The notes beneath the pieces are model-generated. The model saw only the letters and a list, made by a program, of their open reading frames with translations. It had not been told where the DNA came from and did not search any database. Positions 44,992 through 53,577 of a DNA stretch of 64,000 nucleotides are shown one piece after another. How positions within the stretch are numbered: the stretch's first letter is position 1; each line of letters opens with the position of its first letter. The position numbers and the translations under genes were made by a program. The stretch is from Acidobacteriota bacterium (GTDB taxonomy: Bacteria > Acidobacteriota > Vicinamibacteria > Vicinamibacterales > UBA2999), in assembly GCA_030697165.1 (NCBI GenBank), contig JAUYQQ010000023.1, positions 124,001 to 188,000 of the forward strand, written 5' to 3'.

Positions 44992-45531
44992 ATGGCCGCG
45001 TTCAACAGTTCGATGGACATCGACCCAACCGACCTGGCCCAGGACGTCCAGCGGTTGCTCGAGGACCTCGCCCGGCGGCGCCCTGACCGGCGGCACGTGG
45101 TCTCGGGCGAGTGCATGCCGGTCGTCGACGTCTTCGAGACCGAGCGAACGGTCGAAATCGTCCTCGACCTGCCGGGGGTGGCCGCCGACGCGCTGCGCGT
45201 GCTGATCAAGTCCGGCGTGGTGTTGATCGTGGGCGAGAAAGAACGGCCCGTCCTGTCGACGAACACGCCGGCCAGCTACCACCTGGTCGAGCGCGACTTT
45301 GGCCGCTTTGCGCGCGCCGTGCGCGTGGCCGGCGCGGTGGATGCCGGGGGCGCGCGCGCCCGCCTCGCGCAGGGCGAACTGCGCGTCGTGCTCCCCCGCC
45401 GTGACGAGCGGCGCGGCCAGGGCCTGCTGATCCCCATCGACACTGGCGCACCTGATGGTCCGGCTTCCACCTCCGCCACGGCTTCGGCGGACAAGGAAGC
45501 CGGACGCCACATCGCCCCGGCGACCGAATGA
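44992..45531 (+). CDS. Hsp20-family protein divergent from dnaK
   Basis: 179 residues. Residues about 40-140 follow the alpha-crystallin pattern: MPVVDVFETERTVEIVLDLP, VVLIVGEKERP, YHLVERDFGRFARAVRVAGAVD, GELRVVLPRRDERR. The C-terminal GPASTSATASADKEAGRH is encoded by a dispersed long-form element (45457-45512), making a foreign tail. TAGAAT (44979-44984) ends 7 nt before ATG 44992, suggesting a leaderless mRNA. Overlaps the next start by 4 bp. Confidence 0.85.
   Translation: MAAFNSSMDIDPTDLAQDVQRLLEDLARRRPDRRHVVSGECMPVVDVFETERTVEIVLDLPGVAADALRVLIKSGVVLIVGEKERPVLSTNTPASYHLVERDFGRFARAVRVAGAVDAGGARARLAQGELRVVLPRRDERRGQGLLIPIDTGAPDGPASTSATASADKEAGRHIAPATE
45457..45512. repeat. Complete 56-bp long-form element in the hsp20-like gene
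   Basis: Starts GGTCCGGCTTCCACCTCCGC and ends AAGCCGGACGCCACAT. Outer stem GTCCGGCTTCC/GGAAGCCGGAC, inner arms CTCCGCC/GGCGGAC. It shows that the short (26-nt) and long forms share the same ends. Confidence 0.85.
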
Positions 45532-51887: not shown

Positions 51888-52337
51888 TCAGAAACCGTCG
51901 GTAGCGGCGCGTGGCCGCGCGTCCAGAAAGTCCTGCAGGATGATCGCCGCGGCGGCGGCATCCAGCTTTGCCTTGCGCTTGCGCCAGTCCTTCTCGTCCA
52001 CCGCCAGCCGCGATTCGGCCTCGACGCTGGAGAGCCGCTCGTCCTGGAGGACGACCGGCACCGCGACCTTCGACTCGAGCGCGCGCGCGAACGTCTCCAC
52101 GATTGGGGTCTGCTTGTTGGCCGACCCATCGAGCCGGCGTGGCCATCCGACCACGACCGCCTCCAGCCCATCGTCATCCTGGATCAGCGCCGTGACCTCG
52201 GCGACGACCATGCGCAGGGTTTCCGCGTCAGACGGTGGCCGCTGCAGCAGCCGCCAGGGCGAGGCCAGCGTCGCGGTGGCGTCGCTCAACGCGAGGCCAA
52301 TGCGCCGCGCGCCGTAGTCGATGCCCAGGACACGCAC
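51888..52337 (-). CDS. ruvX: YqgF/RuvX putative resolvase
   Basis: 149 residues of the RNase H-like fold: VLGIDYGARRIGLALSD, VVVGWPRRLDGSANKQT, LQDERLSSVEA, KLDAAAAAIILQDFLD. The family is linked to Holliday-junction resolution and 16S rRNA maturation. I chose GTG 52337 because TATACT (52349-52344) ends exactly 6 nt before it; TTG 52358 would lie upstream of that transcript. Confidence 0.9.
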   Translation of the reverse strand: MRVLGIDYGARRIGLALSDATATLASPWRLLQRPPSDAETLRMVVAEVTALIQDDDGLEAVVVGWPRRLDGSANKQTPIVETFARALESKVAVPVVLQDERLSSVEAESRLAVDEKDWRKRKAKLDAAAAAIILQDFLDARPRAATDGF

Positions 52338-52343
52338 GGGGCC

Positions 52344-52351
52344 AGTATAAT
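52344..52351. promoter_or_regulatory. Overlapping divergent -10 boxes for ruvX and envC
   Basis: AGTATAAT reads TATAAT on the plus strand (52346-52351) and TATACT on the minus strand (52349-52344). The plus start codon GTG is 8 nt away and the minus GTG is 6 nt away. Both transcripts should be leaderless or nearly so. Confidence 0.7.
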
Positions 52352-52359
52352 TCGCCAAC

Positions 52360-53577
52360 GTGCGAAGACTGGCCGCTGTTCTCGTGCTCGTGTTGATAGG
52401 TCCGCCTGAAGGCGGACGCTACATGCACGACGGCGAGACGACAATGTGGCGTCCGGCTTTCTTGTCCGCCGTAGCCTTGGCCGAGGCGGAAGCCGGACTA
52501 TTCGCGCAGTCGCCGGCCGATGAGGTGCGCGCGCGCGCGGCGGCGCGGATCCGATCGCTGCAGGCGGAGGCGGACCGGCTGGCGGCGCAGTCCCGCACCG
52601 TGTTCGGCGAGTTGCGGCGGCTCGAGCTCGAGCGCGAGATCGCGCGCGAGGAGGTCGCGCGCGCCGAGGCTGACCTGACCCGGGTGTCGGCCACCCACGC
52701 ACAAGCCGCGGCGCGGTTGAAGGGCCTCGAGGCCACGCGCCTCGCGCAAACCCCCGGCGTCAGCGAACGGCTGATCGAAATTTCGAAACGCGGGCGCGGC
52801 GGCTACCTCCAGCTGTTGCTCGCCTCCGACGATCCTCGCGCCTTTGGCCGGCTGAGCCGCGGTGTCGCGGCGGTGGCCGAGCTCGACCGGGTCCGCCTCG
52901 AAACCCACCGCCGGACCGTCGTGGCTGAACGCGCGGCGCTGGCCACGGTCGAGAAGGAACGCGCCGCCGTCGAGCAGTCGCGGAGCGCGGCGCAGCGCAC
53001 GCGCGCCACGCTCGATGCGGCGGTGGCGGCCCGCAACCGGCTGATCGACAGTCTCGATCAGCAGCGCGACCTGGCGGCGCAGTTCGTCGGCGAACTGCAG
53101 GCGGCGCAGCGGCAGATCGAACGGACGCTCGCCACGGCCGACGCCACCTCGGCCACTGCTGCCCTGCCGATTCGCCCGTTCCAGGGCGACCTGCCGTGGC
53201 CGGTGACCGGTCCCGTGGTGTCGCGGTTCGGACGGTCGACCTCCGGCCGTTTCGGGACGGCCATCGTCCGAAATGGTATCGACGTGGCCGCTCCGGAGGG
53301 CACCGTCGCCACCGCCGTCCACGAGGGCCGGGTGGCCTACGCGGCGCCGTTTGCCGGCTTTGGCGTGCTGGTCATCGTCGATCATGGCGGCTCGGCCTTC
53401 ACGCTCTACGGTCACCTGTCCGAGGCCATGGTGTCCGAGGGAACCGTGCTGAAGGCCGGGGAGATAGTCGGCCGGGTCGGGCTCGCGCCGGCCGGAGCGG
53501 CGGCGCTGTACTTCGAAGTGCGGATCGACGGACGCCCGGTCGATCCCCTACAATGGCTGAGGAGATCTACTAGATGA
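52360..53577 (+). CDS. Murein hydrolase activator (EnvC-like, M23 domain)
   Basis: 405 residues. Coiled coil from about 52 to 245, then a LytM/M23 domain (about 280-400) with FGRSTSGRFGTAIVRNGIDVAAPEGT, GGSAFTLYGHL and LYFEVRIDG. It probably activates cell-wall amidases at division. Some canonical M23 zinc residues are replaced (NGIDV for H..D), as in activator-type LytM proteins. The signal peptide is interrupted: after MRRLAAVLVLVLI come 33 residues encoded by two REP-like elements before LFAQS. A leaderless mRNA is likely. ATG overlap with the next gene. Confidence 0.88.
   Translation: MRRLAAVLVLVLIGPPEGGRYMHDGETTMWRPAFLSAVALAEAEAGLFAQSPADEVRARAAARIRSLQAEADRLAAQSRTVFGELRRLELEREIAREEVARAEADLTRVSATHAQAAARLKGLEATRLAQTPGVSERLIEISKRGRGGYLQLLLASDDPRAFGRLSRGVAAVAELDRVRLETHRRTVVAERAALATVEKERAAVEQSRSAAQRTRATLDAAVAARNRLIDSLDQQRDLAAQFVGELQAAQRQIERTLATADATSATAALPIRPFQGDLPWPVTGPVVSRFGRSTSGRFGTAIVRNGIDVAAPEGTVATAVHEGRVAYAAPFAGFGVLVIVDHGGSAFTLYGHLSEAMVSEGTVLKAGEIVGRVGLAPAGAAALYFEVRIDGRPVDPLQWLRRSTR
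52399..52499. repeat. Two REP-like elements inside the envC signal-peptide region
   Basis: Element 1 (52399-52425): GGTCCGCC-TGAA-GGCGGACGCTACATG, short form. Element 2 (52443-52499): begins ATGTGGCGTCCGGCTTTCTT and ends GGCGGAAGCCGGACT, long form. They are in opposite orientation, 17 bp apart, like a REPIN doublet. Confidence 0.88.

Follow-up and report, generated by a model that had tools for sequence, protein, structure and literature searches.

GTAG-tagged REPs, those lying within genes included, were reportedly described by Di Nocera et al. in 2013. As excerpted here, the literature on this class presents the GTAG REP as a short palindrome with GTAG at its foot that occurs in many copies and often in opposite pairs, and it states that some copies lie in frame in genes, with O. 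terrae having the most, that intragenic copies are found more often near the NH2 terminus than near the end of the ORF, and that many of the N-terminal cases were judged extragenic by the authors (PMC3733652). A count of "signal peptide" and "leader" in that paper's main text gives 0 for both terms. Compared with the cases in the portion of PMC3733652 used here, the locus described below differs in that orthologues set the start upstream of the REPs and the insertion site within the signal peptide. Judged by the available extracts on REPINs and RAYTs, the arrangement is alike in having two inverted REPs and a spacer, but unlike in that none of the six Y1_Tnp genes of this genome has this REP within its 1.5-kb flanks.

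Two other systems are close. Palindromic elements of Rickettsia are kept in frame in conserved genes, and a decorated guanylate kinase is active with a changed substrate affinity, according to the sections of PMC10969869 and PMC2229807 cited here; these elements are a different repeat, RPE-4 and RPE-6 being classed as CGTC and not as GTAG repeats. In enterobacteria a RU/ERIC MITE contributes repeat sequence to a predicted signal peptide, that of YPO1552 (Delihas 2007, PMC2759123). In the extract of that paper used here the MITE makes the start of one ORF, whereas our REPs lie inside existing signal peptides; also unlike the MITE fusion, the signal-peptide start and the rest of the protein are common to congeners with an empty site, and REPs are retained in decayed form. 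REPs lying in frame and a repeat that contributes to a predicted signal peptide are thus already known; among open-licence PMC papers we found none that describes REPs within a signal peptide already in place together with orthologues in which the site is empty. Intragenic REPs have so far mostly been seen as tolerated decoration, and a set of empty, filled and decayed signal-peptide sites is a natural series for testing a mobile repeat as a functional part of a protein. It also means that signal-peptide and start-site calls need care in REP-rich genomes.

The REP pair in the signal peptide of an EnvC-like protein

The window, by which we mean the whole stretch of 64,000 nucleotides of Acidobacteriota DNA that was analysed, contains a gene for an EnvC-like M23/LytM-domain protein at 52360..53577 on the + strand, with a GTG start (GTG CGA AGA) and 405 aa (PF01551, 4.1e-22). 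Its neighbours are the divergent ruvX (51888..52358, - strand; PF03652, TIGR00250) and an S41 protease gene. The label EnvC-like, which comes from an earlier note on this DNA, is a fair one: the protein matches M23 chains (4.5e-23) and EnvC chains (1.3e-21) in the PDB, yet it scores 80.7 bits with the NCBIfam EnvC profile, for which the cut-off is 270. By eye, the first metal ligand of its LytM domain is seemingly replaced (RNGID).

The earlier note held that two palindromic elements, translated into 33 residues, interrupt the signal peptide, and the ORF, the stems and the tails confirm this. The ORF opens with the native n- and h-region MRRLAAVLVLVLI (52360..52398, + strand), which was delimited by 10-residue hydropathy and by likeness to the congener G006, continues with 33 codons at 52399-52497 (codons 14-46) that read GPPEGGRYMHDGETTMWRPAFLSAVALAEAEAG, and resumes with LFAQSPADE. 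The segment RRLAAVLVLVLI of the n/h-region is similar by eye to RLAAWVVVLAI of G006, and LFAQSPADE after the insert matches IAAQSPADE of the same genome. The native end of the signal peptide, LFA/QS (c-region; 52498..52512, + strand), was placed by alignment with G005, G006 and G008, where its counterparts are LVA/QS, IAA/QS and LAA/QS, respectively.

Within the insert, REP A (52400..52424, + strand) is a hairpin with an 8-bp stem (52400-52417) followed by the tail GCTACAT (52418-52424), which was set by eye, is paired in the fold and reads GTAGC on the other strand. A spacer of 19 nt (52425..52443) separates it from REP B, and the spacers differ in other copies. REP B is a long hairpin in the opposite orientation (52444..52498, - strand), with the tail ATGTGGC at 52444-52450 and the stem at 52451-52498; it is an imperfect inverted repeat whose arms are 75% complementary, it has many genomic copies, and its + strand translates as MWRPAFLSAVALAEAEAG, an in-frame ATG included. 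The tails of REP A and REP B face each other, which bears out the REPIN-like opposite orientation proposed before. When folded as single-stranded DNA, the insert beats 200/200 dinucleotide shuffles (z -3.1), and as RNA the first 171 nt of the presumed envC message also fold better than all 200 shuffles.

The tail and stem pattern ATGT(A/G)GCGTCCG(G/C)CTT has 292 matches in the genome at <=1 mismatch (151 forward, 141 reverse), against 0 for the reversed control, and a 121-base stretch gives 43 blast matches, mostly to the long arm only; the insert is therefore a real dispersed repeat. The foot of the palindrome carries GTAG or GTGG (in the envC copy GTAG on the other strand of REP A and GTGG in REP B), which fits the GTAG REP class as far as the quoted part of PMC3733652 defines it. 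Inverted pairs are found at the envC site itself and in many clusters in - + order.

The insert changes the spacing of the export signal and leaves its first part in place. The best 10-residue hydropathy of the native core is 3.59, compared with 2.23-3.37 in six congeneric orthologues, which makes it the most hydrophobic among the seven compared, and Sec targeting would on this ground be expected to survive. The first core is followed by GPPEGG, and from residue 13 on there is no AxA-type site before residue 37; AxA-type sites lie at 37-49, in and after a second hydrophobic segment. This REP-encoded segment has a hydropathy of 1.94 and two Glu, compared with 2.23-3.37 for the orthologue h-regions, and the native cleavage site is now 36 residues from the first core.

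Empty-site orthologues, the translation start and the fate of the signal

Eight congeners were available, and the start region of envC was readable in six of them (G001, G002, G005, G006, G007, G008). As to the other two, envC of G003 is apparently reduced to two short fragments (G003:C15:23940-24095) and that of G004 is a fragment at a contig end. Four of the six orthologues were aligned as DNA and all six as protein. Orthologues lacking the 33 codons, which the earlier note had named as the evidence to look for, were found in these six congeners of the same genus: the codons are absent from 6/6, and the site is filled only in the source genome (G000). The six orthologues without the 33 codons show that the REP pair in envC is a lineage-specific insertion, and a site filled in G000 and empty in six congeners also shows mobility of the repeat. 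G005 and G006 have the REP family elsewhere (181 and 57 matches), yet their envC site is empty. Likeness to G006 places the insert between the core and the cleavage site, whereas MAFFT aligns the hydrophobic stretch encoded by the REP with the native core; the junction is only approximate because the region diverges fast and has 7- or 8-bp tandem arrays in 4/6 orthologues.

These arrays, at the start of the envC signal peptide (L005 2385-2428, L004 1471-1508, L003 1476-1507, L002 1463-1501), have units not divisible by three, so that a phase-variable envC start could be possible in the four congeners.

A TATAAT box, probably belonging to a leaderless promoter, lies at 52346..52351 on the + strand and ends 8 nt before the start codon. 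The box is kept in 6/6 congeneric orthologues, and its distance to the first in-frame start is 6-11 nt in 5/6 of them and 8 nt in G000; the exception is G005, which has an out-of-frame ATG at 11 nt and, as its first in-frame start, a TTG at 25 nt. The in-frame TTG of G005 falls in the array region. In the part of a survey relevant here, a TA-like box about 10-12 nt upstream of the start is the mark of probable leaderless genes (PMC3160421).

The mature EnvC-like protein is under purifying selection. Its pairwise dN/dS, which averages over the time before and after the insertion, is 0.13 (G006), 0.14 (G005), 0.21 (G008) and 0.27 (G002), and the lineage-specific codons give nonsynonymous/synonymous counts of 5/26 for G000, 5/25 for G005, 4/27 for G006 and 7/19 for G008.

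Our preferred reading, to which we give a probability of about 0.65, is that a GTAG-type REP pair lies in frame between the h- and c-region of a signal peptide that is translated from the GTG, whose first core still directs the protein to Sec, and that is then either cleaved or left as a tether. The pair entered the envC signal peptide after the lineage split from the sequenced congeners, as the orthologues show, and the frame was presumably kept because the EnvC-like protein is needed, as the purifying selection on its mature part suggests. Translation probably starts at the old, likely leaderless GTG upstream of the REPs, given the spacing between TATAAT and start, and the strong first hydrophobic core would still direct the EnvC-like protein to Sec. 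The REP-encoded hydrophobic frame would add a second, weaker segment with the candidate sites ALA/E and AEA/G before the native LFA/QS. The outcome may be cleavage at REP-encoded or native sites, or a tether made of the first helix and a foreign linker. EnvC-like proteins act next to the inner membrane, and an anchor could be harmless there.

The true start could instead be the ATG at 52444 (or that at 52423) within the REP, which would give the protein its own mini signal MWRPAFLSAVALAEAEA/G and turn the old n/h-region into an untranslated leader. Both ATGs are in frame, the segment offers M, R, a hydrophobic stretch and AxA sites, and MAFFT does set the REP segment over the native h-region of the orthologues. 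We nevertheless consider such a start unlikely, as neither ATG has a clear Shine-Dalgarno sequence upstream by eye, and the TATAAT box lies 8 nt before the GTG at 52360, which encodes the intact and very hydrophobic MRRLAAVLVLVLI; this spacing, like that in 5/6 congeners, argues against the downstream start that the earlier note had named as a way in which its proposal could fail. In the cupin and TonB receptor genes described below, moreover, the start codons lie upstream of the REP and are, by eye, conserved in REP-less congeners.

The same note had offered a split and nonfunctional export signal as one outcome, which would leave the EnvC-like protein cytoplasmic or inactive and the gene on its way to loss. 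The h-region and the cleavage site have indeed been pushed 36 residues apart, and envC is apparently mostly deleted in the congener G003, but the 405-codon ORF is intact, its first hydrophobic core is the strongest of the seven, and the lineage-specific N/S is 0.19 compared with 0.20, 0.15 and 0.37 in three congeners, so we hold a broken signal to be quite improbable. An assembly or binning artefact is hardly credible: the assembly is in 23 contigs and repeats are prone to misassembly, but the envC locus sits within a 367-kb contig beside ruvX and the S41 protease gene, and the frame is exactly open across the insert.

The repeat family in other genes and genomes

Among 60 genomes, G000 included, the REP pattern was counted 292 times in G000, 181 in G005, 119 in G040, 59 in G033, 57 in G006 and 46 in G003; the remaining 54 have 13 or fewer matches each, and the control gives 0 or 1 per genome. 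The 1.5-kb flanks of the six Y1_Tnp (PF01797) genes contain no copy of this REP at <=3 mismatches, a looseness that gave 6 matches in 89 kb of relatives' loci. Three of the Y1_Tnp (RAYT-like) genes (L094-L096) adjoin other palindromic repeats by eye, and several REP families seem to coexist in the genome. Another, related repeat, whose core is like TGTCCGCCGTAGCCTTGGCGGAGG and whose foot differs, was seen mainly in G002 (L306, L309, L310, L312-L315, L317), with further copies in G005 (L311) and G000 (L318); G002 has 4 matches to the envC-type REP foot.

A codon-usage test was applied to the two flanks of every cluster that we read, 103 of them in G000, 81 in G005 and 7 in G003. The 103 clusters of G000 derive from the 100 exact matches listed, the exact ATGTGGCGTCCGGCTT matches on C18-C23, four loci and the site of the window, with the majority of one-mismatch copies, and the exact variants on C18-C23 other than ATGTGGCGTCCGGCTT, outside this set, and 86/191 clusters, whose flanks were not determined, are outside the frame counts. 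Among clusters flanked on either side by coding sequence of one strand, 28/42 in G000, 18/29 in G005 and 0/2 in G003 keep the frame. Pooling G000 and G005 gives 46/71 in the same frame (P 6e-8 against the expected 1/3), and 39 of the 46 are open throughout; this P overstates independence because paralogous kinases account for five in-frame copies and nine sites are common to both genomes; with the kinases collapsed, G000 alone gives 24/38 in frame (P 1.6e-4). Insertion without loss of frame, which had been called striking, is thus not exceptional here, as REPs of this family are in frame in many genes. From inspection by eye we take their hosts to include GlmU-, PurL-, glycine dehydrogenase- and MurC-like proteins.

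The kinase-like paralogues (L105, L106, L167-L171, L185) have a common REP pair in a single loop that precedes (T/I)ALVMELVEG, and this pair may have spread through gene duplication. The nine in-frame sites common to G000 and G005, matched by eye, are L139/L218, L128/L247, L153/L233, L155/L264, L138/L265, L148/L270, L102/L243, L176/L325 and L149/L329; at most of these sites the two genomes hold different REPs, which suggests that the sites have persisted for long while their content turned over locally.

Three further clusters of G000 lie in signal-peptide-like N-termini, namely those of a cupin (PF07883), a TonB receptor (PF07715) and a short protein that has no Pfam match in the part following the REP. 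They come from an automatic scan that returned 12 + 1 rows, of which L061, L069, L074, L134 and, in G003, L337 were kept; inspection by eye removed eight that were antisense or lay inside long ORFs (L102, L129, L136, L138, L139, L218, L220, L243).

The cupin gene at C8:290155 reads MRRSLLLAAFVLCSLL-[REP B]-PIDAQA/IGG. Its orthologue in G005 has a long-REP remnant of 34/37 bases (score 59, best of 500 shuffles 25), read as SAFLSPVALAKG, and that in G003 a weaker one of 21/25 (score 30, best shuffle 26), read as SPLALAK. The orthologues of G006, G008, G002 and G007 have no REP similarity (scores 14-18 against a shuffle mean of about 14), and by eye the signal peptide in G004 is an ordinary one; G001, whose match sits at a contig end, was left out of this comparison. 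The TonB receptor gene on C22 has a REP pair in G000 that gives AKA/G, and in G003 a single short REP at the same site (VAI-GPAEAGRYI) that gives AEA/G and was refound in a blind scan of G003. The receptors of G006 and G008 have no REP at that site, G005 was without a match at the cut-off used, and the other four congeners have distant homologues only. The candidate sites AKA/G (G000) and AEA/G (G003) fall shortly after the hydrophobic core, which is the expected position for signal peptidase. In the cupin and the TonB receptor, REPs have apparently been retained as signal-peptide sequence in related bacteria, as far as sequence comparison goes.

There are two subtypes of the long REP, and the consensus of each contains a single frame that is clearly hydrophobic: the 10-residue mean is 1.99 for MWRPAFLSAVALAEVEAG (next best frame 0.58) and 2.10 for VASGFLTAVALAKVVSR (next best frame 1.02). 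In the signal-peptide cases the long REP has a hydropathy of 1.94 in envC, 1.99 in the cupin, 1.88 in the TonB receptor and 0.01 in L074, where it is read in a hydrophilic frame. Nine other in-frame long-REP clusters (10 units; the rows L101 and L266, which are arrays of short REPs, excluded) range from -1.16 to 1.39, and two of them, L131 (1.39) and L281 (0.87), are read in the same frame as the TonB copy and are less hydrophobic. A strongly hydrophobic reading is thus found in 3/4 signal-peptide cases and 0/9 other clusters (Fisher about 0.014 by hand), and by frame the contrast is 3/4 against 2/9 (Fisher about 0.12 by hand), a post hoc and small contrast that hints weakly at a difference. 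Perhaps the REP family is a recurrent donor of export signals, with selection keeping such frames and the signal peptides of several genes in the genus being partly REP-derived, although we find this joint reading doubtful. As part of it, the long hairpin in one frame might supply a start codon, Arg, a hydrophobic core and AxA sites, and the short hairpin could supply the cleavage motif GPA(K/E)A/G.

We also considered signal peptides as a hotspot for REPs, which the counts do not support: 4/103 clusters in G000 compare with 2.4 expected from a crude and probably generous estimate (P 0.22); elsewhere, signal-peptide insertions make up 0/81 clusters in G005 and 1/7 in G003. The window has a second long REP of the family at 45455-45512, which lies, by eye, just upstream of a gene starting MKLLFIGDIVGRPG.
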